A stretch of DNA of 64,000 bases from Cellulosimicrobium cellulans. GTDB taxonomy: Bacteria > Actinomycetota > Actinomycetes > Actinomycetales > Cellulomonadaceae. Position numbers and translations under genes: made by a program. The DNA is taken from NCBI RefSeq assembly GCF_006539945.1, contig NZ_BJNZ01000006.1, positions 62,001-126,000 on the forward strand, in the 5' to 3' direction. The notes below the pieces were generated by a model. The model searched no databases and had not been told where the DNA came from. It saw only the letters and a program-made list of their open reading frames with translations. The first letter of the stretch is position 1. Each line of letters starts with the position of its first letter. Below, piece after piece: positions 11,438-50,005 of the stretch.

Positions 11438-11452
11438 GGTCGTCTCCGATCG

Positions 11453-11473: not shown

Positions 11474-11493
11474 TGACGCTAGTCCGATCCAGG

Positions 11494-11516
11494 ATTCTCG
11501 TCAACTTGACATGAAT
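11494..11516. promoter_or_regulatory. Palindrome 2, candidate NrtR-type operator
   Basis: An AT-containing 23-bp palindrome: ATTC..GTCAA / TTGAC..GAAT around C11505, with 9 of 11 positions pairing. It lies 16 bp upstream of the regulator's ATG at 11533, as expected for autoregulation. Shares the GTC core with palindrome 1, the two centres being 42 bp (four helical turns) apart. Confidence 0.55.
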
Positions 11517-11532
11517 GTGCGACGATGACCGC

Positions 11533-32716: not shown

Positions 32717-33697
32717 TCAGCAGTAGAGGTTCGCGCCCGTCGTCGTGCCGAGGATCTGCGCGAAGCGCTGGAACGCCGTCACGCGGGACTGGACCTGCGC
32801 GGGGTTGCCGCCGTTGCACTCGATCGAGCCGTTGATCGAGCGGATCGACTCGCCGAAGCCCGCGCCGGAGACGATCGCCTGGTGCCCGGACATCGAGCCC
32901 GCGCCCGACTGCGTGTTCCAGAACCAGAGCCCGGTCTTCCACGCGATAGCGGAGTTCTGCTCCACGAGATACGGGTTGTTGAGCAGGTCGATGCCGAGCG
33001 CGTCGCCCGCGGCCTTGTAGTTGTAGTTCCAGCTCAGCTGGACCGGGCCCTTGCCGTAGTACGCGCTCTGGCCCGCCGGGCAGCCGTAGGGCTGCGAGTA
33101 GTCGCAGTAGTGCGGGTAGTTCGCGGTGTTGATCTCCTTGACGTAGACGAGCCCGCCTGTCTCGTGGTTGACGTTCGCGAGGAACGCCGCGGCCTCGCGC
33201 TTGGCGACCTCCGTGCCACCCGTCGTCGCGAAGCCCGGGTACGCGGACAGCGCGTCGACGAGGCCCTGGTAGGTGTAGAACGGGTTCCGGTTCGGGAACA
33301 TCTGGTTGAACTGGGCCTCGGAGACGACGAAGCCGCTGGGCGTGCCGGGGTTCCCGGGGTTGCCCGGGTCGGTCCCGCCGCCGCACGCGCCCTGCGAGCG
33401 CCAGACGCCCCACTCGCCGGTGGTGCCGGGCGTCTCGCCCTGGGTCCACCAGCCGGCCTTCCAGTTCTGGCCGCCGTGCGAGACGACGGCGCCGCCCAGG
33501 TAGACCGTGCCGGAGCTCCACGCGGGGGCGCAGGTCGCGGCGTGCGCCTGCTGCGCCGGGCCGGCGACCGCCCACGAGAGCGCTCCCACGAGCACGAGGA
33601 GAACGGCGAGGAACAGGGCGAGAGGACGGGACGCGGGCCGTGGGGCGACCACGGCGGACGCCGCGGTGGGAGACGACGCCGGAGCTCGGGTGTGCAT
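32717..33697 (-). CDS. Secreted GH19 chitinase with N-terminal CBM5/12-type module
   Basis: A 326-residue endo-chitinase. The signal peptide covers about residues 24-54 (PLALFLAVLLVLVGALSWAV, cleavage near AHAA). Residues 56-105 are a chitin-binding module with WKAGWWTQGETPGTTGEWGVW, then a GGGTDPGNPGNPGTP linker. The catalytic domain follows from about 122. The catalytic pair is Glu179 in NVNHETGG and Glu188 in YVKEIN, nine residues apart as in Streptomyces ChiG-type enzymes; YYGKGPVQLSWNYNY and SINGSIECNGG are also family motifs. Hydrolyses beta-1,4-GlcNAc chains with inversion. A close paralogue without signal and CBM is at 49147. Divergent from the LacI gene. Confidence 0.93.
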   Translation of the reverse strand: MHTRAPASSPTAASAVVAPRPASRPLALFLAVLLVLVGALSWAVAGPAQQAHAATCAPAWSSGTVYLGGAVVSHGGQNWKAGWWTQGETPGTTGEWGVWRSQGACGGGTDPGNPGNPGTPSGFVVSEAQFNQMFPNRNPFYTYQGLVDALSAYPGFATTGGTEVAKREAAAFLANVNHETGGLVYVKEINTANYPHYCDYSQPYGCPAGQSAYYGKGPVQLSWNYNYKAAGDALGIDLLNNPYLVEQNSAIAWKTGLWFWNTQSGAGSMSGHQAIVSGAGFGESIRSINGSIECNGGNPAQVQSRVTAFQRFAQILGTTTGANLYC

Positions 33698-33868: not shown

Positions 33869-33880
33869 GGAAACGTTTCC
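33869..33880. promoter_or_regulatory. LacI-type operator O1
   Basis: A perfect 12-bp palindrome GGAAACGTTTCC, the consensus half-sites of LacI/CcpA-like regulators, 72 bp before the LacI start at 33952. Confidence 0.85.
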
Positions 33881-33902
33881 AGGTCCGTCGAGGCCGTCAG
33901 TC

Positions 33903-33916
33903 TGGAAACGTTTCCA
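33903..33916. promoter_or_regulatory. LacI-type operator O2
   Basis: A perfect 14-bp palindrome TGGAAACGTTTCCA, 36 bp before the LacI start. Its centre is 35 bp from that of O1. Two identical operators close together suggest cooperative autorepression of the operon that follows, and possibly an effect on the divergent chitinase gene. Confidence 0.87.
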
Positions 33917-33951
33917 AACGCGACGGTCCTTCGACGACGAGGTGGACGACA

Positions 33952-35061
33952 GTGACGTCATCACGCGCCACGCTGATCCAGGTGGCACAGCGGGCCGGGG
34001 TCTCCCTGGCCTCGACCTCCCGCGCCCTGCACGGGACGGGCGCGAGCCCGGCGATGGTCGAGCGCGTGCGCGCCGCGGCCACGGAGCTGGGCTACAGCCC
34101 GGACGCGATCGGGCGGTCGCTGCGCCTGAAGAAGACGTTCCAGGTCGCGTTCGCCGTCGCCGACATCGGCAACCCCGTCTACGTCGAGATGATGACGGCG
34201 ATCCACGAGGTCCTCGCGCCGCACGGCTACCGCGTCGTCGTCATGACGACCGGGGACACGACGTCCTCGACCGTCGAGCTCGTGCGCAGCCTGTCGCGCG
34301 GCTTCGTCGACGCGATGATCCTCAGCCCCTTGCGCACCGACGACGAGCTCGTCGAGGAGATCCGGCAGGCGCCGGTCCCGGTCGTCGTCATCGGTCGCAC
34401 CCTCGCCGACCGCGGCATCGACTCCGTCTCCACCGACTCGGCGGGCGGCATCGGCGATGCGGTGCGCCACCTGCTCGGCCTCGGCCGCCGCCGGCTCGCG
34501 TTCCTCAACGGCCCGCTCGACACCACCCCGGGCGAGGCGCGCCAGCGCGGCTTCGACGCCGCGACGCGCGCCGCCGAGTTCACGGGGGAGCGCGCGGACG
34601 CCGTCGTCGCGACGGACTTCACCGTGGCCGCGGGCCTCGCCGCGACGCGCGAGCTCCTCGACGGGTCCGACGGCGGCGCGCGCCCGGACGCGATCGTCGC
34701 GGCCAACGACCTGCTCGCCATCGGGGCGATCCGGGCCGTGCGCGAGCGTGGCCTGTCGGTCCCCGAGGACGTCGCGGTGACCGGGATGGACGACACCGAG
34801 ATCGGCCGGGTGTTCCAGCCCAGCCTCACGAGCGTCTCGCTCGGCTCGACCGAGCGCGGGCGGATCGCCGCGGAGCTCGTGGTCGACCTCGTGGACGGCG
34901 ACGCGCAGGCCGGGCGCCACACCGCGGTCGGTCCGCGCCTCGTCGTGCGCGAGTCGACCGCCGCGCCGGCCGCGACGCCCGAGGCGTCCGGGCAGCACGA
35001 GGCGAGCGACGCCGTCGGGCACGGGGCGAGCGCCGACGCCGCGGGAGGGGTGACCCGATGA
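33952..35061 (+). CDS. LacI-family repressor of the ribosylglycohydrolase operon
   Basis: A 369-residue LacI/GalR repressor. The HTH is LIQVAQRAGVSLASTSRALH, the hinge GYSPDAIGRSLRLKKTF, and the ligand domain has FAVADIGNPVYVEMMTAI, GFVDAMILSPLR, STDSAGGIGDAVRHLLG, RLAFLNGPLD, IVAANDLLAIGAI and VAVTGMDDTEIGRVFQPSLTSV. A 30-residue Ala/His-rich tail is extra. The GTG at 33952 has GAGGTGG upstream. It overlaps the permease gene by 4 bp (ATGA), so it is the first cistron, and two perfect operators lie in its leader. Confidence 0.92.
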   Translation: MTSSRATLIQVAQRAGVSLASTSRALHGTGASPAMVERVRAAATELGYSPDAIGRSLRLKKTFQVAFAVADIGNPVYVEMMTAIHEVLAPHGYRVVVMTTGDTTSSTVELVRSLSRGFVDAMILSPLRTDDELVEEIRQAPVPVVVIGRTLADRGIDSVSTDSAGGIGDAVRHLLGLGRRRLAFLNGPLDTTPGEARQRGFDAATRAAEFTGERADAVVATDFTVAAGLAATRELLDGSDGGARPDAIVAANDLLAIGAIRAVRERGLSVPEDVAVTGMDDTEIGRVFQPSLTSVSLGSTERGRIAAELVVDLVDGDAQAGRHTAVGPRLVVRESTAAPAATPEASGQHEASDAVGHGASADAAGGVTR

Positions 35062-36020
35062 GCGCACCGACCCTCGCGGGCGACCCGCACGCCGCGGCCG
35101 CGCGTCGACCCGACCGCGGCGCCCCGCGCCGGACCGGCGGGATGGCCCGCGCCAAGCGGCGCGAGGCGATCGCGCTCGTCATGCCGTCGCTCCTGCCGAT
35201 CCTCGTGCTCAGCGTCGCGCCGCTCGTCATGGGTGTCGCGCTCGCGTTCACGGACGCGCGGCTCGTGCGCCACCCGGACTACCAGTTCGTGGGCGTCGAC
35301 AACTTCGTGCGCCTCGCGGACAACTCGTTCTTCTGGGACTCGTTCCGCATCGGCATGATCTGGGCCGTCTCGGTGACGCTGCTCCAGCTCGTCGCCGCGA
35401 TGGGACTCGCGCTCCTGCTCAACTCCGGGCTGCGGCTCCAGGGGCTGACGCGCGTCCTCGCACTCATCCCCTGGGCCATGCCCCCGGTCGTCGTGGCGAT
35501 CATGTGGCAGATGATCTACTCGCCCAACGCCGGGCCGCTCAACGCGTTCCTCGGCGCCCTCGGGCTCCCGGACGACATCAACTGGCTCGCCGACTTCTCG
35601 ACCGCGCTGCCCGCGGTGATCGTCGTCGGCGTCTGGGTCGGCATGCCGCAGACCACCGTGACGCTGCTCGCCGGTCTCCAGCAGATCCCGGACGAGCTGC
35701 ACGAGGCCGCCGCGATGGACGGTGCGGGCGCGTGGCGCCGCTTCACCGCGGTGACGCTCCCGAGCCTGCGCCCGATCATCACGTCGATCACGTCGCTGAA
35801 CTTCATCTGGAACTTCAACTCGTTCTCGCTGGTCTACGTGCTCACCGAGGGCGGGCCGGGCGGCCGGACCATGCTGCCGATGCTCTTCACGTACCTGGAG
35901 GCGTTCAAGAACCGGAACATCGGGTACGCCGCCGCGATGGGCGTGGTCCTCGTGGTGGTCGTCGTCCTCCTGCTCGCGATCTACCTGCGGTCGCAGTTCC
36001 GCTCCGAGAAGGAGAGCTGA
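35058..36020 (+). CDS. ABC sugar importer permease, MalF/UgpA type
   Basis: A 320-residue inner-membrane permease of the carbohydrate CUT1 family. After a basic N-terminal tail come six hydrophobic helices, beginning AIALVMPSLLPILVLSVAPL. The EAA loop that contacts the ATPase is LHEAAAMDGAGAWRRFTAVTLPSLRP, residues near 210-235. Pairs with the next permease (3-bp gap) and the binding lipoprotein. No ATPase gene is in the operon, so a shared MsiK-type ATPase encoded elsewhere is expected, as is usual in actinomycetes. Confidence 0.92.
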   Translation: MSAPTLAGDPHAAAARRPDRGAPRRTGGMARAKRREAIALVMPSLLPILVLSVAPLVMGVALAFTDARLVRHPDYQFVGVDNFVRLADNSFFWDSFRIGMIWAVSVTLLQLVAAMGLALLLNSGLRLQGLTRVLALIPWAMPPVVVAIMWQMIYSPNAGPLNAFLGALGLPDDINWLADFSTALPAVIVVGVWVGMPQTTVTLLAGLQQIPDELHEAAAMDGAGAWRRFTAVTLPSLRPIITSITSLNFIWNFNSFSLVYVLTEGGPGGRTMLPMLFTYLEAFKNRNIGYAAAMGVVLVVVVVLLLAIYLRSQFRSEKES

Positions 36021-36023
36021 CCC

Positions 36024-36851
36024 GTGCGCGCACTCGTCCGCCCGGCCCAGTACGTGGCCCTCGCGTTCTACATCCTCTTCCTCGGCTTCCCGCTGCTGTG
36101 GCTCATCTCGGCGTCGCTCAAGTCGTCGGGCGAGCTCAACTCGCTGACCGTGAGCCTGATCCCGCAGGACTTCCACTGGGAGAACTACTCGCAGGCGCTC
36201 TCGCGGCAGGGCCTCGTGCGCTCGGCGTGGAACAGCGCGATCGTCGCGGTCGTCTCGACGGCGCTCGTCATCGTCATCGCGCTGCCCGCGTCGTACGTGC
36301 TCGCGCGCCTGCGCGGCAAGATCCGCGCGGCGGGCGTGGGCTGGATCCTCGTGAGCCAGGTGTTCCCGGTGATCCTCATCATCCTTCCGCTGTTCCTCAT
36401 CCTGCGGACCGTCGGCCTCACGGACTCGTTGGTCGGGCTCACGCTCGTCCACACCACCTACACCCTGCCGTTCGCGCTGTGGATGATGCAGGGCTACGTC
36501 TCCGCGATCCCGGTCGACCTCGAGGAGGCGGGCTCCATGGACGGCGCGAGCCGGTTCACCGTGCTCCGCAGGATCGTCTTCCCGCTGCTCATGCCGGGCG
36601 TCGTCGCGACGGCGATGTTCAGCTTCGTCTCCTCGTGGAACGAGTTCTTCTTCGCGCTCGTCCTGCTCCAGTCGCCCGAGAACTACACGCTGCCCATCAC
36701 GCTGAAGATGTTCATCGGCGGCGAGGGCAAGGTGGCGCTCGGTCCGCTCGCCGCGGGCTCCGTGCTCGCGGCCATCCCCAGCATCGTCTTCTTCTCGATC
36801 ATGCAGAAGAAGCTCACCGGCGGCCTGCTCTCGGGCGCGGTGAAGGGCTGA
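36024..36851 (+). CDS. ABC sugar importer permease, MalG/UgpE type
   Basis: A 275-residue permease, second half of the heterodimer. It has six helices (YVALAFYILFLGFPLLWLIS first) and the EAA motif IPVDLEEAGSMDGASRFTVLRRIVFPL cut here as LEEAGSMDGASRFTVL. The large external loop LNSLTVSLIPQDFHWENYSQ is typical of MalG-like subunits. GTG start, 3 bp after the previous stop, so translationally coupled. Confidence 0.92.
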   Translation: MRALVRPAQYVALAFYILFLGFPLLWLISASLKSSGELNSLTVSLIPQDFHWENYSQALSRQGLVRSAWNSAIVAVVSTALVIVIALPASYVLARLRGKIRAAGVGWILVSQVFPVILIILPLFLILRTVGLTDSLVGLTLVHTTYTLPFALWMMQGYVSAIPVDLEEAGSMDGASRFTVLRRIVFPLLMPGVVATAMFSFVSSWNEFFFALVLLQSPENYTLPITLKMFIGGEGKVALGPLAAGSVLAAIPSIVFFSIMQKKLTGGLLSGAVKG

Positions 36852-36922
36852 CCGTGATCCCCTCCACGCCCGGTCCCGCCCCCAGGCTCTCCCGACCCCA
36901 CCCCCACCCGAAAGGTAGAACC

Positions 36923-38212
36923 ATGAAGACTCGTGGTGCGTCCATCGCCGCATGCCTCACGATCACGACCCTGCTCGTCGCGTCCTGCTCCAGCGGGGGC
37001 GGCAGCGGGGACGACGGCGCCGACGGCGGCCCGGTGACGCTGAAGTTCCAGTCGCTGTCCGACCAGCCCGCCGCGATCGAGGCGACCGAGAAGATCGTCG
37101 CCGACTGGAACGAGGCCAACCCCGACGTCCAGGTCGAGATCGTGCCCGCGGGCTGGGACGGGATCTACGACAAGCTCATCACCCAGTTCAACGGCGGCGC
37201 CGCGCCGGACATCATCCACTACGAGGCCGCGAGCATCGTGCCCTTCGCCGTGGACGGCTACCTCGCCGACCTGTCCGAGTACATGTCGGACGAGAAGCGC
37301 GCCGACATCCCCGAGGGCATCCTCGACTCCGTGACGGTCGACGACCAGGTCATCGCGTACCCGACCGAGCTCCAGTCCTACATGGTGTTCGCGAACAAGA
37401 CGATGCTCGAGGCTGCGGGCGTCGAGATCCCCACGGGCGACACGATGACGTGGGACGAGCTGCGCGAGATCGCGAAGGCCACCACGAAGGACGGCGCGTA
37501 CGGGCTCGGGTGGGGGCTCGCGAGCCCGACGGCCGCGTTCATGGCCATGGCGCCCGGGTTCGGCGGTCAGTACTTCGAGGGCACCGGCGCCGACGCGATC
37601 ATCACCATCGGCGAGGGCGAGATGGCCCTGCCGGAGCTCGTCGACGAGATGGCGCACACCGACAGCACCGTGCTGCCGGTGACGCTCACGCAGTCCGGCT
37701 CGGAGACGCTCGCGTCGTTCTACGCGGGGCAGGTCGCGATGACGGTCCAGGGCTCGTTCCAGGCCGCGAACATCGCGAACGACGCACCCGAGGGCTTCGA
37801 CTGGGTCGTGCTGCCCCCGCTCGAGGGCCCCGACGGCGCCGAGCAGGCCGCCAACCCGCAGACGCTCTCGGTGAACATCGACTCCGAGCACGTCGAGGAG
37901 TCCGCGGAGTTCATCGAGTTCTTCACCGACACGGAGAACCTCGCCGCGCTCAACGAGGCGGACGCGCTCATCCCGGCCACGACGTCGGCGCAGGAGGCCA
38001 TGGCGGCCTCGCTCGGCGACGAGAACGGCTGGTCGACGATCCTCTCGTCCGGCCAGTACCTCACGTCGGCGCCGTACCTGTTCGTCGACGCGTACGCGCA
38101 GTGGAAGGACACGGTCGCGACGCCCGCGTACCAGAAGTTCCTCGCCCAGGAGATCGACGCCGACCAGCTCGCGACCGAGCTCGAGGCCGGCTGGGACGAG
38201 ATCACCAAGTAG
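36923..38212 (+). CDS. ABC importer substrate-binding lipoprotein
   Basis: A 429-residue extracytoplasmic solute-binding protein (family 1). The lipoprotein signal is SIAACLTITTLLVASCSS with the lipidated Cys near residue 21, followed by a Gly/Asp-rich linker. The binding fold has VTLKFQSLSDQPAAIEATEK, VDGYLADLSEYM, YPTELQSYMVFANK, MTWDELREIAKA, GQVAMTVQGSFQ and AAEFIEFF-like ESAEFIEFFTDTENLAAL. The tail LEAGWDEI is usual. A strong hairpin directly follows the gene and probably makes it the most abundant product. Ligand not readable; context suggests a ribosylated compound or sugar. Confidence 0.92.
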   Translation: MKTRGASIAACLTITTLLVASCSSGGGSGDDGADGGPVTLKFQSLSDQPAAIEATEKIVADWNEANPDVQVEIVPAGWDGIYDKLITQFNGGAAPDIIHYEAASIVPFAVDGYLADLSEYMSDEKRADIPEGILDSVTVDDQVIAYPTELQSYMVFANKTMLEAAGVEIPTGDTMTWDELREIAKATTKDGAYGLGWGLASPTAAFMAMAPGFGGQYFEGTGADAIITIGEGEMALPELVDEMAHTDSTVLPVTLTQSGSETLASFYAGQVAMTVQGSFQAANIANDAPEGFDWVVLPPLEGPDGAEQAANPQTLSVNIDSEHVEESAEFIEFFTDTENLAALNEADALIPATTSAQEAMAASLGDENGWSTILSSGQYLTSAPYLFVDAYAQWKDTVATPAYQKFLAQEIDADQLATELEAGWDEITK

Positions 38213-38218
38213 CAGCGA

Positions 38219-38248
38219 CCGGGGCGGTCGCGCACGCGACCGCCCCGG
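38219..38248. terminator. Intra-operon hairpin after the binding-protein gene
   Basis: CCGGGGCGGTCGCG (38219-38232) pairs perfectly with CGCGACCGCCCCGG (38235-38248) across a 2-base gap, 7 bp after the stop of the binding-protein gene. It may stabilise the upstream mRNA or partly terminate, with read-through into the catabolic genes. Confidence 0.7.
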
Positions 38249-38319
38249 CCGGGAACCGCGACCCGACGGGTCGCACCGGGCGCGTCGCGCGCCGAGGAGA
38301 GATCGACAGGGAGTGGACC

Positions 38320-39549
38320 GTGACCTGGCTGGACGACCGAGCGGTGGCAGTGATCACCGGAGCGGCGGTGGGGGACGCGCTGGGGGGCGCCACCGAGGGC
38401 TGGACCCCCGAGCAGATCGAGGAGCGCCACGGGGGGCGCGTGACGGGGATCGTCGAGCCCTGGTACCCGAACTGGCAGGACGCGCGTCCGATCGCGCCCT
38501 ACCACAAGGGTGACGGGCACATCACGGACGACACCCTCATGACGCGCGCGCTCGTGGAGGTGTACGCGAAGCGCCGCGAGCACCTCGACGCGTACGCGAT
38601 GGCCGAGGACCTCGTGCCCCTCATGATCGGCGAGCCGCGCTGGATCCCCGAGCTGGAGTCGACCGCGCTGCTGCTCCAGCGCGTGTTCCTCGCCGAGAAG
38701 TGGATCGTCGCGCGCCTGCACTACGGGCACGTCGACCCGCGCGAGGCGGGCGTCGGGAACGTCGTCAACTGCGGCGCCGCGATGTACGTCGCGCCCGTCG
38801 GGCTCGCGAACGCGGGCGACCCGCGCGGCGCGTACGCCGAGGCGATCGACCTCACGGGCGCGCACCAGTCGAGCTACGGCCGCGAGGCCGCGGGCGTGTT
38901 CGCGGCCATGGTCGCCGCGTCGGTCGCACCCGGGGCGACGGTCGACGACGTCGTGCACGCCGCGCTCGACGTCGCGCACGACGGCACGGCCGCCGCGCTC
39001 CAGGCCGTCGTCGAGGCGTTCGACGGCTGGACGACGGCGCCCACGACGGACGAGGAGGAGCGCGCCCTCGCGCGGCTGATCCGGGAGACGGTCGCGCCGT
39101 TCGACTCCGTCGGGCCCGCGTACCGGCAGATGTCGATGGACGCGCGACGCCCGTCGCGCACCAAGTCCATCGAGGAGCTGCCCGCGGCGCTCGGCTTCGT
39201 GCTCGGGCACCGCGGCGACTTCCGCGGCGCGGTCCTCGGCGCGGTGAACTACGGGCGCGACGCCGACTCGATCGCCGTGATGGCCGGCGCGGTGTGCGCG
39301 GGCCTCGGCGGGACGGCCGTCGTGCCCGACGAGTGGCTCGACGCGATCGAGGAGGCGAGCCGCATGGACGTCCGCGAGACGGGTCGCCTCATGGCGTCCG
39401 CCGCGCAGGACATCCTCCGCGCCGACCGCGAGCGCGCGACGTCGCGCCTGCGCGCGCTCGCCGAGCTCGGCGGGGCGTCCGTGGACGGCGCCGGTCTCGG
39501 CGTGCACGACGGCGAGGCGCGCGCCGCGCGGGCGGGTGACCCGGCGTGA
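38320..39549 (+). CDS. ADP-ribosylglycohydrolase-family protein 1
   Basis: A 409-residue DraG/ARH-fold protein with the binuclear-metal motifs intact: GAAVGDALGGATEGW at the start, GDGHITDDTLMTRAL (family TDDT) near residue 70, and NYGRDADSIAVMAGAVCAGLGGT near 315. These enzymes remove ADP-ribose, or ribose-like groups, from proteins or small molecules with Mg2+. GTG start with GGGAG 7 bp upstream. The last bases overlap the second hydrolase gene (GTGA). Cytoplasmic. In this operon the likely job is cleavage of an imported glycoside rather than protein repair (inference). Confidence 0.85.
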   Translation: MTWLDDRAVAVITGAAVGDALGGATEGWTPEQIEERHGGRVTGIVEPWYPNWQDARPIAPYHKGDGHITDDTLMTRALVEVYAKRREHLDAYAMAEDLVPLMIGEPRWIPELESTALLLQRVFLAEKWIVARLHYGHVDPREAGVGNVVNCGAAMYVAPVGLANAGDPRGAYAEAIDLTGAHQSSYGREAAGVFAAMVAASVAPGATVDDVVHAALDVAHDGTAAALQAVVEAFDGWTTAPTTDEEERALARLIRETVAPFDSVGPAYRQMSMDARRPSRTKSIEELPAALGFVLGHRGDFRGAVLGAVNYGRDADSIAVMAGAVCAGLGGTAVVPDEWLDAIEEASRMDVRETGRLMASAAQDILRADRERATSRLRALAELGGASVDGAGLGVHDGEARAARAGDPA

Positions 39550-41039
39550 GGCTCACGTGGGCCCAGCCCGAGGACCTGCTCGCCCACGAGCTCGTCCAGG
39601 CGGCGGCGGAGGGCAAGGACGCCGCGGCGCTCGCGGACGTGCGCGAGCGCTGGACCGCTGCGGGCGGCGACCCCGTCCCCGCGGTGAGCGGGGCCGGCCC
39701 GGTCCCCGCGACCCCGGCGCTGCGCGCGCTCGCGCGCGACCTGCTCGTGGAGCTCGACGCGCTGCCCGCGGCGCCCGCGCCGCACGAGCCCGACGACTGG
39801 GACGCGATCCTCGCCACGCTCCCGGCGGCGCCCGGCCTGCCCACCCGCCCGGGCGCCGTCGGGTCCTCCGGCGGCTTCGCGGCCGGTGCGCCGACCGGAA
39901 CCGCCGCCGACGCCGCGTACGCGGACCGCGTGCTCGGCGCGTGGACCGGGCGCGCGGCGGGCTGCCTGCTCGGCAAGCCCGTGGAGAAGATCCCGCGCGC
40001 CGGGATCGAGGAGATCCTGCGCGCGACGGGCCGGTGGCCGCTCGACCGCTGGTTCACCGCCGTCGGCCTGCCCGACGACGTCGCCGCGCGCTGGCCGTGG
40101 AACCGGCGCAGCGCCCCGACGTCGCTCGAGGAGAACATCGACGGGATGCCCGAGGACGACGACCTCAACTACCCGATCCTCGCGCTCGCCCTGCTGGAGC
40201 GGCACGGGCGCGGCTTCACGACGGACGACGTCGCGCAGCTCTGGCTCGACGCTCTGCCCGCGGGCCGGGTGTTCACGGCCGAGCGCGCCGCGTACCGCAA
40301 CATCCTCGACGCGCGGCCCGTGCCGGAGACGGCGACGCACCACAACCCGTTCCGGGAGTGGATCGGCGCGCTCATCCGCACGGACGTGCTCGGCTGGGTC
40401 TCGCCGGGCGACGTGCGCGAGGCCGCACGCCTCGCGTGGACGGACGCGCGCCTGAGCCACACGCGCAACGGCGTGTACGGCGCGATGTGGGCGGCCGCGC
40501 TCGCGTCCGCGGCGATGGTCTGCGAGACGGTGGACGAGGTGCTCGACGCGGCGGACGCCGTCGTGCCGCCGGGCAGCCGCCTGGCCGCCGCGATCCGGCT
40601 CGGCCGCGACGCGGGCCGCGACGGCGACGCGTCCGAGGCGGGCGTGCGAGCCGGGCTCGACACGATCCACGCCGCGTACGGCGACCTGCACTGGGTGCAC
40701 GTGCTCGACAACGCCGCGGTGATCGCCTACGCGCTCACCGCGGGGCGCGGCGCGGACGGCCGCGGCGACTTCGGCGCGAGCGTCGCGATCGCCGTCACCG
40801 CGGGCTGGGACACCGACTCCGCGGGGGCGACGGTCGGCGGCGTGGTGGGTGCGCTGCAGGGCGTCGAGGGCATCGGCCAGCGGTGGACGCGCCCGCTCGA
40901 CGGCCACATCGCGACCTCGCTGCCCGGCGGCGAGCAGAGGATCGTGGACCTCGCGGCGCGGACGGTCGCGCTCGCGACGGTCCCGGTCGTGGTGGCCGGG
41001 GGAGCCGTGCAGGGTCCCACGGAGGAGGCACAGGCATGA
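39546..41039 (+). CDS. ADP-ribosylglycohydrolase-family protein 2
   Basis: A 497-residue second member of the family, only distantly similar to the first. Residues 1-110 are an extra N-terminal region (MRLTWAQPEDLLAHELVQAA, then a Pro/Ala linker). The hydrolase fold begins at about 118 (AYADRVLGAWTGRAAGCLLG). Where the family has TDDT it reads MPEDDDLNYPILALALLE, so metal ligands are changed but still acidic. The later motif GWDTDSAGATVGGVVGAL is intact. GTG start overlapping the previous stop by 4 bp, and its own stop overlaps ribokinase ATG. Two non-identical hydrolases suggest two linkages or substrates. Confidence 0.83.
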   Translation: MRLTWAQPEDLLAHELVQAAAEGKDAAALADVRERWTAAGGDPVPAVSGAGPVPATPALRALARDLLVELDALPAAPAPHEPDDWDAILATLPAAPGLPTRPGAVGSSGGFAAGAPTGTAADAAYADRVLGAWTGRAAGCLLGKPVEKIPRAGIEEILRATGRWPLDRWFTAVGLPDDVAARWPWNRRSAPTSLEENIDGMPEDDDLNYPILALALLERHGRGFTTDDVAQLWLDALPAGRVFTAERAAYRNILDARPVPETATHHNPFREWIGALIRTDVLGWVSPGDVREAARLAWTDARLSHTRNGVYGAMWAAALASAAMVCETVDEVLDAADAVVPPGSRLAAAIRLGRDAGRDGDASEAGVRAGLDTIHAAYGDLHWVHVLDNAAVIAYALTAGRGADGRGDFGASVAIAVTAGWDTDSAGATVGGVVGALQGVEGIGQRWTRPLDGHIATSLPGGEQRIVDLAARTVALATVPVVVAGGAVQGPTEEAQA

Positions 41040-42016
41040 GCACGACGGCGGACGGGGAGCAGGGCGCCACGGTCCCGGGCGGGTCGGGACGGGTCGTGGT
41101 GGTCGGGTCGGCGAACGTCGACCTCGTCGTCGACGTTCCGCGCCACCCCGGCGGCGGAGAGACCATCCTCGGCGGCGAGCTGCGGCGCAACCCCGGCGGC
41201 AAGGGCGCAAACCAGGCGGTCGGCGCGGCGCGTGCGGGCGGTGCCGACACGACGTTCGTCGGCGCGCTCGGGCACGACGACGCGGCGGACCTGCTGCTCG
41301 CGTCGCTCCACCGCGGCGGCGTGCGGACCGACCTCGTCGAGCGCGTGGACGCCGCGACGGGCACCGCGCTCATCACCGTCTCGCCCGACGGCGAGAACGC
41401 GATCGTCGTCGCGCCCGGCGCGAACTCGCACGTGACGGTCGGCGCGGCACAGGCGGAGCGGATCGCTGCGGCGGACGTCGTCCTCGCGCAGCTCGAGATC
41501 CCGCTCGACGTCGTGCGCGCCGCCGCCGCGGCACGCCGCCCGGGCGCGCTGCTGGTCCTCAACGCGGCGCCGTCGCGCGACCTGCCCGACGACGTCTGGG
41601 CCGCGCTCGACGTGCTCGTCGTCAACGAGCACGAGGCGGCGGACCTGGCGGGCGCCGCCGGCGACGCCGACCCGAGCGCGCTCGCGGGGCTGCTGCTGGA
41701 GCGCGTGCCGGCCGTCGTCGTGACGCTGGGCGGCCGGGGGAGCCTCGTGCTCGAACGACTGCCCGGCGGCAATCTGCAGTTCCTCGTGCCTGCGGTCCCC
41801 GTTGAGGCGGTCGACACGACCGGCGCGGGCGACACGTTCTGCGGCGTCCTCGCCGCGGCGCTCGCGCGCGGCGCGGACCTGCCCGACGCCGCGCGGCTGG
41901 CCGCCGCCGCGGGTGCGCTCGCGGTGACCCGCCCCGGGGCGCAGGACGCCGTGCCCGACGCGGCGGACGTCGTCGCGCTCGCCGAGCGCGCCGAGAACCC
42001 CGCCCGACCGACCTGA
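41036..42016 (+). CDS. rbsK: Ribokinase-like PfkB sugar kinase
   Basis: A 326-residue PfkB-family kinase, closest in motifs to ribokinase: VVVVGSANVDLVVDVPRHPGG, RRNPGGKGANQAVGAARAG and the C-terminal catalytic signature VDTTGAGDTFCGVLAAAL with the base Asp. It would phosphorylate D-ribose to ribose-5-phosphate with ATP. Start ATG overlaps the upstream stop and has GGAGGAGG. Its place right after two ADP-ribosylglycohydrolases suggests it captures the ribose they release. Other pentose or nucleoside substrates are possible within the family. Confidence 0.87.
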   Translation: MSTTADGEQGATVPGGSGRVVVVGSANVDLVVDVPRHPGGGETILGGELRRNPGGKGANQAVGAARAGGADTTFVGALGHDDAADLLLASLHRGGVRTDLVERVDAATGTALITVSPDGENAIVVAPGANSHVTVGAAQAERIAAADVVLAQLEIPLDVVRAAAAARRPGALLVLNAAPSRDLPDDVWAALDVLVVNEHEAADLAGAAGDADPSALAGLLLERVPAVVVTLGGRGSLVLERLPGGNLQFLVPAVPVEAVDTTGAGDTFCGVLAAALARGADLPDAARLAAAAGALAVTRPGAQDAVPDAADVVALAERAENPARPT

Positions 42017-42069
42017 GCCACTCCGCAGCACGTCCGAGCGCGGGCCCGGCCCGCCGAGGGAAAGGCACC

Positions 42070-44265
42070 ATGACCTACACGTTCGACCCGCTCGTCCCGC
42101 GTCCGATCGACCTGCCGACCGAGGTCGCGCTCGACGGGCCGCTCACGCCCGAGCAGTCCCTCGCGCTCGACGAGGCGAAGATCTTCGTCGGCCCGGCCGA
42201 CCCCGCCGACCGCCCGGCCTGGCGCGAGCGCCTCGCCGCGTGGCGCGACGACGCGCGCCGCCGCCACGGGTACACGGGCGCCGCGTACGACCGCCCGGAC
42301 GCCGCGTGGGCCGCCGGGTGCTCGACGGTCGCCCAGGTCTGGCTGTGGGACGAGCTGCTGTACTCGTTCGAGGAGCACCGGTTCACGCCCGAGCGGTTCC
42401 TCACCGACGCGCGCGAGCGGTTCGGCGGCCTCGACGCCGTCGTGCTGTGGCACGCGTACCCCGTCATCGGGATCGACGACCGCAACCAGTGGGACTTCTA
42501 CCGCGACGTCCCGGGGATCGTCGACCTCGTGCGGACGTTCCACGACGCGGGCCTGCACGTGTTCGTCGACTACAACCCGTGGGACGTCGGCACGCGTCGC
42601 GGCGACGACGACCTCACCGAGCTCGCGGCCGTCGTGCGCGACCTCGGCGCCGACGGCGTCTTCCTCGACACGCTGAAGAAGGCCGAGCCGGAGCTCGTGG
42701 CGCGGCTCGAGGCCGCGCGCCCGGGGATCGTCCTGGAGGGCGAGTCCAAGCTCCCGGTCGAGCGCATCGAGGACCACTCGTCGTCGTGGGCGCAGTTCTT
42801 CGCCGACTCGCCCGTGCCCGGCGTGCTGCGCGCGCACTGGTACGAGCGGCGGCACATGCAGCACCACGTGCGCCGCTGGCACCGCGACCACTCCGAGGAG
42901 CTCCAGTCCGCGTGGCTCAACGGCGTGGGCGTCATGGTGTGGGAGGTCGTGTTCGGCGTGTGGGTCGGCTGGTCGGCGCGCGACGCGGCGACGGTGAAGC
43001 GCCTGGTCACGGTCCAGCGCGCGGCCCGGCCGCTCCTGCTGGACGGCGAGTGGACGCCGCTCACCGAGCTCGCCCCCGAGGCGGAGGAGGCCGGTGTCTA
43101 CGCGTCGCGCTGGGAGCTCGACGGCGTGACCCTGTGGACGCTGGTCAACCGAGGCGCCGCTGACTACGCCGGCCCCCTCCTCCCGCCCGACCACCCCTCC
43201 CGCCGAACCCGGGACTCCGTGGCACCCGAGGCGCTGGGTGACGTGCAACCCGGGGTTCGCCAGGGCGCGGATGACGCTCGGACCCGGGTTCGGCCCTGCG
43301 GGGGTGTCGACGGCGTGCGGGTGCCCGCGCGGGGCGTCGCCGCGGTGCTGCACGTGGCCGACGGCGCGCCCGAGCCCGCGTGGCTGCCGCACCTGCGCGA
43401 CGTGGTCGCCTCGCTCGACGAGTCCGCGCGCCACGACCCCGACGCGCGGTTCCCGCACCGGCTCGCGCGCCGCCTCCACGCGTCACCAGCCGCGTCGCCC
43501 GCCGCGTCCGCGGCCTCGGCGGTGTCGATCGAGGCGACGGACCCGACCGGGTCGAGCGCCGCCGTCGAACAGGGCAGGACCGGGGCGACGGGCGCGCCCG
43601 AGCCGGGGGCCGTCGTCGTCCCCGCGGGGCCGTACGTGCTGACCGTCCGGTACCGCGCGCGCGAGACCGGGATGTACCAGGGCGCGCCGTACGTGGACGA
43701 GTGGAAGCCGCTCCCGCCGCGCCTGCACGACGCGCGGACCCTCCAGCGCGACGGCGAGCTCGCCGCCCCGGTGGCGGTGGGCCGCGACGTGACGAACGCG
43801 GAGTTCGCGGAGTTCCTCGCTGCCACCGGGTACGTGCCCGCCGTCGCGCACCGCTTCCTCGCCCACTGGGTCGACGGGCGTCCCGCGCCCGGCACGGAGG
43901 ACGAGCCGGTGACCTTCGTCGACCTCGACGACGCGCGCACGTTCTGCGCGTGGCGCGGCGGACGCCTGCCCACCGAGGACGAGTGGCAGCTCGCGGCCGA
44001 GCAGCCCGGCTGGGCGCGCGGCGAGCCCGCCGTGTGGAGCTGGACGGGCTCCGAGCACTCCGACGGCCGGACCCGGTTCGTCATGCTCAAGGGCGGCAGC
44101 GACTACCGCGCCGAGGGCTCCGACTGGTACGTCGAGGGCGGGCGCCACGCCCCTGACTACGCGGTCAAGCTCCTCGTCCCCGGCCTGGGGCTCGCGCGCG
44201 GCGCGACCGTCGGGTTCCGCTGCGCGTGGGACCTCGCCGACGACGCGAGGGAGGTGACGGCATGA
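42070..44265 (+). CDS. Fusion of a TIM-barrel hydrolase-like domain and an FGE/SUMF1-like domain
   Basis: A 731-residue two-domain protein. Residues 60-365 look like a glycosidase-type TIM barrel: AQVWLWDELLYSFEEHRF, AVVLWHAYPVIGIDDRN, HVFVDYNPWDVGTRR, GADGVFLDTLKKAEPE and IVLEGESKL, with Asp and Glu in catalytic-like positions. From about residue 520 there is a formylglycine-generating-enzyme-like domain: VGRDVTNAEFAEFLAATGYV, PVTFVDLDDARTFCAWRGGR, LPTEDEWQLAAE, WSWTGSEHSDG, MLKGGSDYRAEG and VGFRCAWDLA. The active-site Cys pair of true FGE is not evident. Between the domains is a low-complexity stretch with a DNA inverted repeat (43202-43294). No signal peptide. Overlaps the CoA-transferase ATG by 4 bp. 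Confidence 0.75.
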   Translation: MTYTFDPLVPRPIDLPTEVALDGPLTPEQSLALDEAKIFVGPADPADRPAWRERLAAWRDDARRRHGYTGAAYDRPDAAWAAGCSTVAQVWLWDELLYSFEEHRFTPERFLTDARERFGGLDAVVLWHAYPVIGIDDRNQWDFYRDVPGIVDLVRTFHDAGLHVFVDYNPWDVGTRRGDDDLTELAAVVRDLGADGVFLDTLKKAEPELVARLEAARPGIVLEGESKLPVERIEDHSSSWAQFFADSPVPGVLRAHWYERRHMQHHVRRWHRDHSEELQSAWLNGVGVMVWEVVFGVWVGWSARDAATVKRLVTVQRAARPLLLDGEWTPLTELAPEAEEAGVYASRWELDGVTLWTLVNRGAADYAGPLLPPDHPSRRTRDSVAPEALGDVQPGVRQGADDARTRVRPCGGVDGVRVPARGVAAVLHVADGAPEPAWLPHLRDVVASLDESARHDPDARFPHRLARRLHASPAASPAASAASAVSIEATDPTGSSAAVEQGRTGATGAPEPGAVVVPAGPYVLTVRYRARETGMYQGAPYVDEWKPLPPRLHDARTLQRDGELAAPVAVGRDVTNAEFAEFLAATGYVPAVAHRFLAHWVDGRPAPGTEDEPVTFVDLDDARTFCAWRGGRLPTEDEWQLAAEQPGWARGEPAVWSWTGSEHSDGRTRFVMLKGGSDYRAEGSDWYVEGGRHAPDYAVKLLVPGLGLARGATVGFRCAWDLADDAREVTA
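43202..43294. repeat. Inverted repeat inside the fusion gene
   Basis: GCCGAACCCGGG (43202-43213) is inverted exactly as CCCGGGTTCGGC (43283-43294), with a third AACCCGGGGTT in the middle (43247-43257). It encodes an in-frame linker of unusual composition (SRRTRDSVAPEALGDVQPG). This looks like a small palindromic element inserted in frame within the coding region. Confidence 0.55.
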
Positions 44266-45482
44266 CGGACGCACCGCGCGTCTCGCGCGATCCTGCCGCC
44301 GGCGCGCTCGCGGGCCTGCGCGTCGTCGACGCGTCGACGCTGTTCGCCGGGCCCATGGCAGCGATGCACCTCGGCGACCTGGGCGCCGACGTCGTCAAGG
44401 TCGAGCACCCCACGAAGCCCGACCCGTCGCGGACGCACGGCGCCGCGAAGGACGGCGTGAACCTGTGGTGGAAGACGCTCGGGCGCAACAAGCGCACCGT
44501 CACCGCGAACCTCGGGAGCGACGGCGGCCGCGAGGTGTTCCTCGCGCTCGTCGCCGACGCGGACGTCGTCGTCGAGAACTTCCGGCCCGGCACGCTCGAG
44601 CGCTGGGGCCTCGGCTACGACGAGCTGTCCGCGCGCAACCCGCGGCTCGTGCTCGCGCGCGTGAGCGGGTTCGGGCAGGTCGGGCCGTACCGCACCCGCC
44701 CCGGGTTCGGCACGCTCGCCGAGGCGATGAGCGGGTTCGCCGCGATGACCGGCGAGCCCGACGGCCCGCCGACCCTCCCGCCGTTCGGGCTCGCCGACGG
44801 CGTCGCGTCGCTCGCGACCGCGTTCGCCGTCATGGTCGCGCTGTCGACGCGCGAGCGCACCGGGCACGGGCAGGTCGTCGACACGGCGATCATCGAGCCC
44901 ATCCTCGCGATGCTCGGGCCGCAGATCACGCGCTGGGACCAGCTCCGCACCGTGCAGCCGCGCACCGGCAACCGGTCCGCGAACAACGCGCCCCGCAACA
45001 CCTACCGCACGCGCGACGGGCAGTGGGTCGCCGTGTCGACGTCGGCGCAGTCCATCGCCGAGCGCGTCATGCGCCTCGTCGGGCGCCCCGAGATCGTCGA
45101 CGAGCCGTGGTTCGCGAGCGGCGTCGAGCGCGCGCAGCACGCCGACCTGCTCGACGAGGCCGTCGGCGGCTGGATCGCGCAGCGCACGCGCGACGAGGTC
45201 GTCGCCGCGTTCGAGGAGGCGCAGGCCGCCGTCGCGCCGATCTACGACGCCCACGACATCGTCGACGACCCGCAGTTCCGCGCGCTCGGCACGATCCACG
45301 AGATCGAGGACCCCGAGCTCGGACCGATGCTCATGCAGGGCCCGCTGTTCCGGATGTCCGAGAACGACGGCGTCATCCGCTTCACCGGCCGCGCGCACGG
45401 CGCCGACACCGACGCCGTGCTGGGCGAGCTGGGCTTCTCGCCCGAGCGCGTCGCGGAGCTCCGGGCCGAGGGGGCGGTATGA
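44262..45482 (+). CDS. Class III CoA-transferase (CaiB/BaiF family)
   Basis: A 406-residue family III CoA-transferase. Motifs: LRVVDASTLFAGPMAAMHLGDLGADVVKVE, then GRNKRTVTANL, VVVENFRPGTLERWGLGYDEL, LVLARVSGFGQVGPYRTRPGFG, and LADGVASLATAF with the likely catalytic Asp near 184. These enzymes move CoA between carboxylic acids through a covalent Asp intermediate. Two 4-bp overlaps bind it to its neighbours. Together with the lyase downstream it suggests breakdown of a hydroxy- or branched dicarboxylic acid as its CoA thioester. Confidence 0.9.
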   Translation: MTDAPRVSRDPAAGALAGLRVVDASTLFAGPMAAMHLGDLGADVVKVEHPTKPDPSRTHGAAKDGVNLWWKTLGRNKRTVTANLGSDGGREVFLALVADADVVVENFRPGTLERWGLGYDELSARNPRLVLARVSGFGQVGPYRTRPGFGTLAEAMSGFAAMTGEPDGPPTLPPFGLADGVASLATAFAVMVALSTRERTGHGQVVDTAIIEPILAMLGPQITRWDQLRTVQPRTGNRSANNAPRNTYRTRDGQWVAVSTSAQSIAERVMRLVGRPEIVDEPWFASGVERAQHADLLDEAVGGWIAQRTRDEVVAAFEEAQAAVAPIYDAHDIVDDPQFRALGTIHEIEDPELGPMLMQGPLFRMSENDGVIRFTGRAHGADTDAVLGELGFSPERVAELRAEGAV

Positions 45483-46342
45483 CGGGGCGGGGCGACCGGC
45501 TGGGCGCCGCGCCGCCGCTGACGCTGCTGTACGTCCCCGCGGACCGGCCCGACCGGGTCGCGAAAGCGCTCGGGTCCGCGGCCGACGTCGTGCTCGTGGA
45601 CCTCGAGGACGCCGTCGCCCCGGCGCGCAAGGACGAGGCGCGGGCGCACGCCGTCGCGCTGCTCGACGACGCGGCGGCCGCGCGCGGGGTCCAGGTGCGG
45701 ATCAACCACCCCGCGACGCCGTGGCACGCCACCGACGTCGCGGCCCTCGCCGGGCTGCCGCTCGCCGTCGGGGCGCGCGCCCCCAAGGTCGAGTCGGCCG
45801 ACGAGGTGCGCGCGATCGCCGCGGCGCTCCCCGGGCGGGCGCTGCACCTGCTGGTCGAGTCGGCGCTCGGCGTCGAGCGCGCGTTCGAGCTCGCGACGGC
45901 GTCGCCGCAGGTCGCGTCTCTCGGGCTCGGCGAGGCCGACCTCCGCTCCGACCTGCGGGTCGACGACGAGGCCGGGCTCGCGTGGGCGCGCAGCCGGGTC
46001 GTCGTCGCGGCCCGGGCGGCGGGGCTGCCGTCGCCCGCGATGTCCGCGTTCACGCACGTGCGCGACCTCGACGGGCTCGCGGCGTCGTGCCGCGCCGGGC
46101 GGGCGCTCGGGTTCTGCGGCCGCACCGCGATCCACCCCGCGCAGCTCGACACCATCCGTGACACCTTCCTCCCGACCCCGGACGAGGTGGACCGCGCGCG
46201 CGAGGTCGTCGAGCGCGTCGGCGACGCGGCGGCGTCGGGCACGGGCGTCGTGGCGCTCGCGGACGGCACGTTCCTCGACGTCGCGATGGTCGAGCGCGCG
46301 CGCACGGTACTGGCACTGGCGGATCGTCGCCCGCCCGGCTAG
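45479..46342 (+). CDS. CitE-like acyl-CoA lyase (HpcH/HpaI family)
   Basis: A 287-residue CitE-like protein. Motifs: LYVPADRPDRVAKAL, VLVDLEDAVAPARKDEARA, VRINHPATPWHATDV, RAPKVESADEVRAI, LHLLVESALGVERAFELA with the metal Glu, LGLGEADLRSDLRV and GFCGRTAIHPAQ. Stand-alone members split citramalyl-, malyl- or beta-hydroxyacyl-CoA, or act as thioesterases. It overlaps the CoA-transferase gene by 4 bp and ends the operon, 46 bp before a palindromic repeat. Confidence 0.87.
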   Translation: MTGRGDRLGAAPPLTLLYVPADRPDRVAKALGSAADVVLVDLEDAVAPARKDEARAHAVALLDDAAAARGVQVRINHPATPWHATDVAALAGLPLAVGARAPKVESADEVRAIAAALPGRALHLLVESALGVERAFELATASPQVASLGLGEADLRSDLRVDDEAGLAWARSRVVVAARAAGLPSPAMSAFTHVRDLDGLAASCRAGRALGFCGRTAIHPAQLDTIRDTFLPTPDEVDRAREVVERVGDAAASGTGVVALADGTFLDVAMVERARTVLALADRRPPG

Positions 46343-46387
46343 CGCGGCCCAGGCGTGCGCCACGCCGAGCACGACCCCGCCCGCGGT

Positions 46388-46442
46388 CGAACACGACATG
46401 AACGTCGCTATCGGCGCGATAACGACCCCCATGTCGTGCTCG
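46388..46442. repeat. 55-bp palindromic repeat, copy A
   Basis: CGAACACGACATG (46388-46400) pairs with CATGTCGTGCTCG (46430-46442) with one mismatch; the inner part (GTCG, TATCG / CGATA, CGAC) also pairs. Between the lyase stop and the esterase start (both rightward). Same element as copies B and C; here the inner arms have drifted most. Confidence 0.85.
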
Positions 46443-46528
46443 GCGGGTGGGGGTGGGGGGCAGGGGGAGGGGGCAGGGGGAGAGGGGCGCGGGGGGCAGG
46501 TATCGCAGGATCTCGATGAGGAGACAGC

Positions 46529-49812: not shown

Positions 49813-49950
49813 GGGGTCCCCTTCGTCGGCGGCGAGCCGCGACGTCGCGGCCGCAGCCACCCTACGCGATTCGTGAGGAACCCTGCGCAATTCCTCCCCG
49901 AGCGGTCCGACGGCACCCCACCGCCGCTCGACCCCGACACCGCCCGCCCT

Positions 49951-50005
49951 CGAGCACGACATGAGGGTCGCTATCGGCTCGACAACGACCCTCATGTCGT
50001 GCTCG
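49951..50005. repeat. 55-bp palindromic repeat, copy C
   Basis: CGAGCACGACATGAGGGTCG (49951-49970) pairs perfectly with its complement at 49986-50005; the inner 15 bp are unpaired. It lies 30 bp after the asparaginase stop (leftward) and 139 bp upstream of the GH19 gene start. Confidence 0.9.

Follow-up and report, generated by a model that had tools for sequence, protein, structure and literature searches.

A LacI-controlled operon of Cellulosimicrobium with two ADP-ribosylglycohydrolase-family genes and a candidate role in the breakdown of a furanosyl-hydroxyacid compound

What might a bacterium do with an operon that joins two ADP-ribosylglycohydrolase (ARH)-family genes to a sugar-type importer, a ribokinase-like kinase, a CoA-transferase and a CitE-like lyase? 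Such an operon lies in the 64,000-nucleotide stretch of Cellulosimicrobium cellulans DNA analysed here (the window), and searches of the openly licensed PubMed Central literature brought up no description of its gene set among the papers listed. We propose, with moderate confidence, that it catabolises an imported furanoside, probably a riboside, joined to a beta-hydroxy acid. D-ribose is the most likely sugar, a malate- or citramalate-like dicarboxylate is our best guess at the acid, and a further sugar is probably attached to the conjugate in this lineage. We infer these substrates, and every reaction proposed below, from the genes, their order and conservation, the operators, the families and the candidate catalytic residues.

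A ten-gene operon behind private operators

Ten + strand genes (33952-46342, by ORF calling, with starts picked by start codon and upstream sequence) form one operon behind two perfect LacI operators, as an earlier note on this DNA had reported. The first, GGAAACGTTTCC (33869..33880), is an exact palindrome and the second (33904..33915) is an exact copy 35 bp from it. These are the only two such sites in the 4,595,203-base genome, both ahead of the operon (reversed control 0), and about 0.05 would be expected genome-wide from base composition alone. Among 37 fetched family loci with a located LacI gene, the exact operator stands upstream of that gene in 35, and two exact operators are present in 25. 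Locus L059 has a partial operator match only, and in L025 the LacI start is cut off, so that no match is seen. Since the operators are private to the operon, its inducer is directly searchable with a simple reporter.

The operon opens with a LacI-family regulator (33952..35061; 369 aa, GTG start; PF00356, PF13377), followed by CUT1-type ABC permeases A (35058..36020; PF00528, top NCBIfam match UgpA-like, below cut-off) and B (36024..36851; PF00528) and an extracellular solute-binding protein (36923..38212; PF01547, PF13416) with a lipoprotein signal recognised by eye. ARH1, ARH2, the kinase, a fusion protein, the CoA-transferase and the lyase complete the co-directional series, and the families first assigned to the ten genes were borne out by Pfam and NCBIfam. 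The 3-bp gap first seen in this layout stands (permease A/permease B), but the six 4-bp overlaps reduce to five, at LacI/permease A, ARH1/ARH2, ARH2/kinase, fusion/CoA-transferase and CoA-transferase/lyase; gaps separate the genes at the remaining three junctions, of 71 and 107 bp and, at kinase/fusion, 53 bp. The ABC importer also stands in part: two permeases and a binding protein are present, but Pfam and NCBIfam revealed no ATPase gene among the ten operon proteins. Six UgpC-like ATPase matches at E <= 1e-40 (best 57%) lie elsewhere in the genome. LacI would come off its two operators in the presence of the compound or one of its products, and the compound would be taken up through the binding protein and both permeases, powered by an ATPase whose gene lies outside the operon.

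A 13-bp perfect inverted repeat with no T run lies 3' of the operon (46363..46445) and is a possible terminator; a search for intrinsic terminators after the operon found none. We did not adopt the secreted esterase gene at 46529-49042 as an eleventh member, because no operator copy is nearby, the inverted repeat intervenes and an esterase relative adjoins the lyase gene in just 18 of the 80 loci listed (same strand in 17, by flank ORF comparison). The esterase may nonetheless be functionally linked to the operon.

Conservation of the cassette

All ten genes occur in the same order in 77 of the 85 assessable loci among the matches listed (95 distinct), compared with 18 of 80 loci listed for the most widespread flank neighbour. 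This order spans many actinobacterial families and is far beyond chance. The co-occurrence check proposed in the earlier note, once run, shows the full set recurring across Actinomycetota with its order unchanged, and the reading of the operon as one regulated unit is upheld. Seven of the other assessable loci lack the kinase only and one is decayed, so that among the matches listed the kinase is missing in 8 of 85 and the lyase in 1 of 85, the decayed one. The kinase is the one readily lost cassette member. The CoA-transferase/lyase pair accompanies the ARH hydrolases in 84 of 85 assessable loci among those listed, in line with the original pairing; L091 keeps the importer, ARH2 and the fusion and has neither CoA-transferase nor lyase. 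Loss of kinase or lyase had been named as a test of a single pathway, and its outcome is mixed: both losses are infrequent in the cassette, and wider relatives separate the genes more often.

These counts come from 120 loci, reduced to 95 distinct by removing identical fusion proteins. In the window's own family 42 other genomes had a match, of which we fetched 40 (all but G158 and G133), and of 193 relatives found among genome contigs we used the best 80. A locus was assessable if its contig reached 7.8 kb or more upstream of the fusion and 2.3 kb or more downstream, which excluded ten of the 95 (L045, L071, L074, L094, L112, L115, L118, L124, L134 and L137). In three of these, L094, L112 and L137, a kinase is likewise absent between ARH2 and the fusion, and L115, with a seemingly different order, contains 300 N where its assembly is interrupted. 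The alignments used for residue conservation keep duplicates and exclude rows shorter than 80% of the window protein.

A cassette match is present in 43 of 200 genomes of the window's own family. Phylum-wide, a fusion search that scored three candidates per genome, and so may have missed some, matched 14 of 396 genomes, of which the window's own matched at full length and the other 13 just in the FGE-like part; the cassette is therefore patchy in the phylum, though frequent in its own family. A phylum-wide ARH1 search at E <= 1e-60 matched 8 of 296 genomes, the window's own and seven of one genus.

Candidate activities of the encoded enzymes

The fusion (42070..44265) had been described as a TIM barrel with an FGE-like domain and no clear role. 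The FGE-like half holds (PF03781, about residues 515-722), and the barrel half (about 25-455) can now be specified as a GH13-like glycosidase fold (Z 20), which suggests a role after all. The predicted barrel-only model (pLDDT 80, pTM 0.84) has a catalytic barrel and a C-terminal beta domain, and aligns with 2wc7 at Z 20.1 and rmsd 3.8 over 313 residues; it supersedes the fold matches of a whole-fusion model of mean pLDDT 61. At E 0.001 the fusion has no glycoside hydrolase match in Pfam. GH13 enzymes carry the nucleophile Asp after strand 4 and the acid/base Glu after strand 5, and in the model Asp200 and Glu225, their candidate counterparts, invariant in 121/121 aligned rows (duplicates included), lie just after barrel strands 4 and 5, respectively. 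Foldseek also matched fucosidases, a GH30 xylanase, the alpha-galactosidase SpAga and the CD98 heavy chain, a non-enzyme, and a GH13-like fold thus occurs in non-enzymes too. Since the matches span several glycosidase families and CD98, Foldseek alone does not settle the clan of the barrel, for which families beyond the match list stay eligible. The fusion may take off an extra sugar or open an alpha-glycosidic bond, and its FGE-like domain would act as a module for binding, not as an oxidase. Formylglycine-generating enzyme (FGE) uses a pair of catalytic cysteines; FGE activity of the fusion was rejected for want of a conserved pair, Cys occurring within the domain in more than 20% of rows at residues 626 (87/121) and 718 (97/121) only, neither of them invariant.

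The CoA-transferase (44262..45482) belongs to class III (CaiB/BaiF-type; PF02515, 398.7 bits), but Gly150 takes the place of the catalytic Asp of the class, and Gly150 and Glu154 are invariant in 119/119 aligned rows (duplicates included). The five solved chains shown in the alignment, two of which are variants of one enzyme, all have that Asp, and CaiB Asp169 is described as conserved (PMC9196870). The reaction of the window's enzyme is therefore uncertain; it would activate the released acid. The lyase (45479..46342; PF03328, 105.7 bits), whose nearest solved relatives are 9nzb and 8khl, acyl-CoA lyase beta chain, would then split the activated acid into acetyl-CoA and a 2-oxo acid. Its R74, E127 and D154, presumably the active-site Arg, Glu and Asp of CitE-like lyases, are conserved in 118/118 aligned rows (duplicates included). 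Against the RipC equivalog (NF038242) it scores 148.7 bits, below the cut-off of 375. Itaconate degradation was rejected as an account of the full acid branch, since Pfam and NCBIfam detected no itaconyl-CoA hydratase among the ten operon proteins.

The kinase (41036..42016) would produce ribose 5-phosphate. T262, G265 and D266 of the kinase signature are conserved in 104/104 aligned rows (duplicates included), but its TIGR02152 score of 270.3 bits falls about 29 short of the ribokinase equivalog cut-off (299.65), as might be expected if the PfkB kinase phosphorylated some other furanose (arabinofuranose, apiose or a furanose hexose). A Sphingopyxis plasmid, which carries in a row a ribokinase, a fusion homologue, a GH127 beta-L-arabinofuranosidase-type protein and a CoA-transferase (only 34% identical and with the Asp), with no ARH in the stretch, also speaks for such a sugar; a GH127-type protein where the ARH is absent at the same time suggests that the ARHs act as furanosidases. 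We consider another furanose possible but unlikely: ribokinase is by far the best family, at 270 bits compared with 85 for the best other activity, ribose-1-phosphate kinase, and neither Pfam nor NCBIfam finds a redox enzyme or an isomerase for a different pentose among the ten proteins. Moreover, the loci without a kinase are explained most simply by a general ribokinase standing in, and a ribokinase homologue was present elsewhere in the one kinase-less genome tested.

Related loci, ARH function and known systems

ARH1 relatives occur in 22 plasmid records, 20 of them alphaproteobacterial, of which 13 were read together with Nonomuraea (Halalkalicoccus was left out); ARH2 relatives occur in 6 (Nonomuraea, Mycolicibacterium, Halostella and Deinococcus read) and fusion relatives in two, both read. 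All 13 rhizobial loci read encode LacI, two permeases, a binding protein, ARH1 and UgpC, the LacI and permeases being 23-30% identical to the window's. A longer ARH2-type protein is present in 11, and the pairing of CoA-transferase and lyase with ARHs extends to rhizobial plasmids in part, with the former in 7 of the 13 and the latter in 6; all seven CoA-transferases share the Gly-for-Asp motif. One of the 13 has a kinase in line and one has a kinase upstream in the opposite direction. Both Pseudochrobactrum loci have ARH1 as their only enzyme, and Phyllobacterium and Nitratireductor have two ARHs and neither an in-line kinase nor a CoA-transferase. The grouping of importer, ARH hydrolase and ribokinase that was first read in the window recurs in Nonomuraea, Deinococcus, Mycolicibacterium and Agrobacterium, which combine LacI, CUT1, ARH and ribokinase with no CoA-transferase or lyase (in Nonomuraea with no fusion either). 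In Halostella the matches are limited to an ARH2-like protein and, on the opposite strand, a kinase.

The partial sets in Pseudochrobactrum, Phyllobacterium, Nitratireductor and Nonomuraea indicate that the sugar and acid parts are separable. They raise the alternative that sugar and acid come from separate molecules that co-occur, for example in plant litter, and that the operon co-regulates two pathways. The four genera with a kinase and no CoA-transferase or lyase, the absence of an in-line kinase from most rhizobial loci, and the secreted esterase beside some lyase genes, which could free acids extracellularly, are all in keeping with this. We nevertheless hold it to be rather improbable, as there is a single importer, ARH genes accompany the CoA-transferase and lyase in two phyla, and in most loci the two halves are joined by overlapping genes (the ARH2/kinase, kinase/fusion and fusion/CoA-transferase junctions each have a median of -4 bp in loci among the matches listed, against 53 bp at kinase/fusion in the window).

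The pairing of acid genes with ARHs is also complete in seven Streptomyces-like loci, which carry four consecutive ARH genes, a kinase (in 5/7), a CoA-transferase and a CitE-like lyase; one of the four ARHs is 59-61% identical to ARH1 and another 50-53% to ARH2. Their 17-20 kb stretches gave no match to LacI, the importer or the fusion, and the lack of an importer is as compatible with internal recycling as with uptake. Their neighbours, read from raw ORFs, are presumably gltB, lgt and trp genes. From these neighbours and from PMC9411070 and PMC5036795, we infer that the seven genomes (g33) are Streptomyces and that the loci correspond to the SCO2028-SCO2031 region of S. coelicolor.

ARH1 (38320..39549) and ARH2 (39546..41039, with an N-terminal extension of about 130 residues) are firm members of PF03747 (159 and 152 bits; cut-off 26.2). 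E26, T69-D70-D71, D314, D316 and S317 of ARH1 are invariant in 111/111 aligned rows, as are E147, E203-D206, D422, D424 and S425 of ARH2 in 112/112 (duplicates included in both). The acidic residues that bind the binuclear metal centre were placed by motif, with roles usual for the family. Some of these roles are given in PMC7050489. Both metal-site motifs thus appear intact; in the proposed pathway ARH1 and ARH2 would act as small-molecule glycosidases that cut furanosyl bonds. That they are instead true ADP-ribosyl hydrolases, in a cassette for the salvage or repair of ADP-ribose-type compounds, whether ADP-ribosylated small molecules or fragments of NAD, with the kinase taking the ribose, agrees with the family, the motifs and the printed listing of the Streptomyces relatives as DraG/ARH-type, but is very doubtful given a sugar-type importer with its own LacI, the CoA-transferase/lyase pair, the lack of any ADP-ribosyltransferase family match among the ten proteins in Pfam at E 0.001, and, in PMC13036486, the inactivity of SCO2028 and SCO2030 on uracil-linked ADP-ribose, a single substrate. 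An anti-phage defence role was set aside, as five operon proteins tested gave no PADLOC match.

The furanoside pathway proposed here shares the logic of regulator, importer, hydrolase and kinase with ordinary LacI-CUT1 sugar operons and differs in using ARH-family hydrolases and in adding acid-activating and C-C-cleaving genes. In E. coli, yegTUV encodes a transporter, an ADP-ribosylglycohydrolase homologue and a PfkB kinase. It resembles the operon in setting an ARH-family protein beside a sugar/nucleoside kinase and a transporter under a specific regulator; it differs in its MFS-type transporter, its GntR regulator, its one ARH and its lack of a CoA-transferase, lyase and fusion. The Pseudomonas itaconate degradation genes ict-ich-ccl place a CoA-transferase beside a citramalyl-CoA lyase (PMC12290011), much as the operon pairs a CoA-transferase with a lyase nearest to solved acyl-CoA lyase beta chains, but the operon has no hydratase gene, its CoA-transferase is without the usual Asp and its lyase misses the RipC cut-off.

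A further comparison is S. coelicolor, in which SCO2028-SCO2031 are given as four uncharacterised DraG/ARH homologues (PMC9411070) and SCO2028-SCO2030 are listed as DraG/ARH-type (PMC5087735). In the same papers, eight DraG-type hydrolases are listed against three characterised ADP-ribosyltransferases (PMC9411070), and the many hydrolases are read as a sign of lively ADP-ribosylation (PMC5087735). By our correspondence, the four homologues very probably sit in an apparent catabolic unit with a CoA-transferase, a lyase and often a ribokinase, which recasts them as candidate metabolic glycosidases. We tentatively suggest, with less assurance than for the pathway proposed above, that a large "ADP-ribosylglycohydrolase" branch, SCO2028-SCO2031 included, is metabolic and cleaves a common furanosyl-hydroxyacid compound that Actinomycetota and rhizobia use by way of a pathway of its own, and that its CoA-transferase is Asp-independent, using Glu154 instead or forming no covalent carboxylate intermediate. 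If so, part of the S. coelicolor hydrolase surplus would serve metabolism, and soil or plant surfaces would hold a widespread natural compound that, like the pathway of its breakdown, awaits description. The Streptomyces-like loci differ from the operon in two extra ARHs and in stretches free of LacI, importer and fusion matches, but both unite ARHs with a CoA-transferase and a lyase.

Layout, control and conservation of the operon

The operon occupies 33952-46342 on the + strand, in the order LacI, two ABC permeases, binding protein, the ADP-ribosylglycohydrolase-family (PF03747) proteins ARH1 (38320-39549) and ARH2 (39546-41039), ribokinase-like kinase, fusion of a GH13-like barrel with an FGE-like domain (42070-44265), class III CoA-transferase (44262-45482) and CitE-like lyase (45479-46342). 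Among its nine junctions we find the single 3-bp gap reported in the earlier note and 4-bp overlaps at five, not six; the remainder are gaps of 53-107 bp. Immediately 3' of the lyase gene, at 46363-46445, are the two 13-bp arms of a perfect inverted repeat, separated by 57 bp.

The two perfect LacI operators previously described ahead of the operon are exact and are the sole copies genome-wide: GGAAACGTTTCC occurs at 33869 and 33904, and an exact search of the genome's 4,595,203 bases found no other site. About 0.05 sites per genome are expected from base composition, and the reversed control pattern gave 0 sites in the same 4,595,203 bases. At least one exact operator precedes LacI in 35 of 37 fetched family loci with a located LacI gene, and 25 carry two; the match is partial in locus L059 and absent from L025, which is cut off inside LacI. 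Since exact operators occur only ahead of the operon, the LacI regulon probably comprises nothing but the ten genes; the count is of exact sites, and recognition of imperfect ones would widen it.

A search of 200 genomes of the family found the fusion protein in 43, among them the window's own genome. Loci from named genomes with fusion relatives (the best 80 of 193) come from Cellulosimicrobium, Promicromonospora, Georgenia, Amycolatopsis, Nocardiopsis, Microbacterium, Glycomyces, Kribbella and others, the closest to the window being mostly Cellulosimicrobium. Deduplication by identical fusion proteins left 95 loci, 85 with sufficient flanking contig. The co-occurrence of these families in other genomes, for which a search had been proposed, was borne out: all ten genes stand in identical order in 77 of the 85, seven lack the kinase only, and one is reduced. 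The latter (L091, Nocardiopsis coralli, 5513-12034) retains permeases, binding protein, ARH2 and fusion, with no LacI, ARH1, kinase, CoA-transferase or lyase in that interval, and represents a decayed or simplified cassette. Gene order and overlaps persist even where identity to the window has fallen to roughly 40-70% (the value varies among the ten proteins), and the flanking genes vary, which argues that the ten-gene set is selected as a unit, with the kinase its sole readily lost member. The one kinase-less genome examined has a ribokinase homologue elsewhere.

By ORF comparison the commonest shared neighbour, found in 18 of 80 loci next to the lyase gene, is a secreted esterase. The window's copy (46529-49042, + strand) adjoins the operon downstream; its product is a PF00756 esterase that looks secreted and has a beta-propeller-like repeat. 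The exact-site search of the genome found no operator copy near it. Six of 80 relatives have minus-strand ORFs of one family on both sides of the operon, which may mark a duplication or insertion hot spot; the window's flanking minus-strand ORFs are at 32717-33697 and 49147-49995, the downstream one a GH19 chitinase.

Protein features and the predicted pathway

The acidic residues of the metal-site motif are all kept in ARH1 (111/111 rows) and ARH2 (112/112). A third ARH-family gene, with the highest PF03747 score of the three, lies outside the window in the same genome (G000, contig C6, 165875-166762, - strand). The fusion barrel model (pLDDT 80, pTM 0.84) matches GH13-type enzymes with Z up to 20.1 over 313 residues (rmsd 3.8, 13% identity). 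In this model strand 4 ends at Asp200 and strand 5 at Glu225, both invariant; GH13 enzymes carry their nucleophile and acid/base at these strand ends. The fusion matched no Pfam glycosidase model, the non-enzymatic CD98 heavy chain has the same fold as its barrel, and its FGE-like half lacks a conserved cysteine pair. The lyase has acyl-CoA lyase beta chains as its nearest known structures. In the CoA-transferase, Gly150 replaces the Asp of five aligned solved chains; Gly150 and Glu154 are invariant (119/119 rows), and the same Gly is found in 7/7 Streptomyces-like and 7/7 rhizobial relatives. That Asp is described as the covalent catalyst of class III CoA-transferases (PMC9196870). Since it is replaced, this subfamily may deviate from the usual mechanism of CoA transfer.

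We predict that a sugar-acid conjugate would be taken up, an extra sugar removed, the furanoside cleaved by the ARHs, ribose phosphorylated, and the acid activated with CoA and then cleaved. A free acid that has to be activated with CoA before a CitE-type lyase can act, in a set that encodes no hydratase, points to a beta-hydroxy dicarboxylate, for instance citramalate or malate. We give this specific pathway an even chance, because other lineages show that the kinase and the CoA-transferase/lyase are separable from the remaining genes, no importer lies near the Streptomyces-like set, the CoA-transferase is atypical and the kinase scores below the ribokinase cut-off. The weaker claim, that the operon serves the catabolism of an imported glycoside and that its ARH-family proteins are metabolic hydrolases, is very likely to be correct.

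Comparison with related gene sets

Seven genomes of one genus, by context Streptomyces, carry ARHx-ARHy-ARH1-ARH2-(kinase, 5/7)-CoA-transferase-CitE, where ARHx and ARHy are additional ARHs; their 17-20 kb stretches contain no LacI, importer or fusion match. The literature describes S. coelicolor SCO2028-SCO2031 as four consecutively numbered, uncharacterised DraG homologues (PMC9411070), with trp genes numbered just past them (PMC5036795), and by this numbering they very probably correspond to the ARH genes of the Streptomyces-like loci. SCO2028 and SCO2030 are reported to be inactive on uracil-linked ADP-ribose (PMC13036486).

Thirteen of 20 alphaproteobacterial plasmid loci found were examined, and all 13 have LacI, two permeases, binding protein, ARH1 and UgpC, with a longer ARH2-type protein in 11, CoA-transferase in seven and lyase in six. 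The Agrobacterium locus has an in-line ribokinase instead; upstream on the opposite strand, one Rhizobium locus has a ribokinase and the Phyllobacterium locus a 65-residue kinase piece. ARH1 is the sole enzyme in both Pseudochrobactrum loci. As LacI and the permeases are only 23-30% identical to those of the window, they resemble them in layout and family. A Nonomuraea locus combines LacI and an importer with four ARHs and a kinase, and fusion, CoA-transferase and lyase were not found in its stretch; Mycolicibacterium and Deinococcus plasmids carry LacI, importer, ARH and ribokinase. A Sphingopyxis plasmid has consecutive genes for TonB receptor, ribokinase, fusion homologue, GH127 protein and CoA-transferase, with a PEP-mutase-family lyase gene close by on the opposite strand and no ARH found in the stretch. 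The fusion family is also present in a Bacteroidota carbohydrate cluster, where a homologue (30% identity; Spirosoma plasmid locus L158, 13686-15860) adjoins a GH28 gene.

The ten-gene combination was not found among the literature matches listed (openly licensed PubMed Central papers); its constituent families are known, as are LacI-CUT1 sugar operons in general. Across the Streptomyces-like, plasmid and Nonomuraea sets ARH genes recur in two pairings, one with a kinase and one with CoA-transferase/lyase, and the lineage of the window joins both and adds the fusion.
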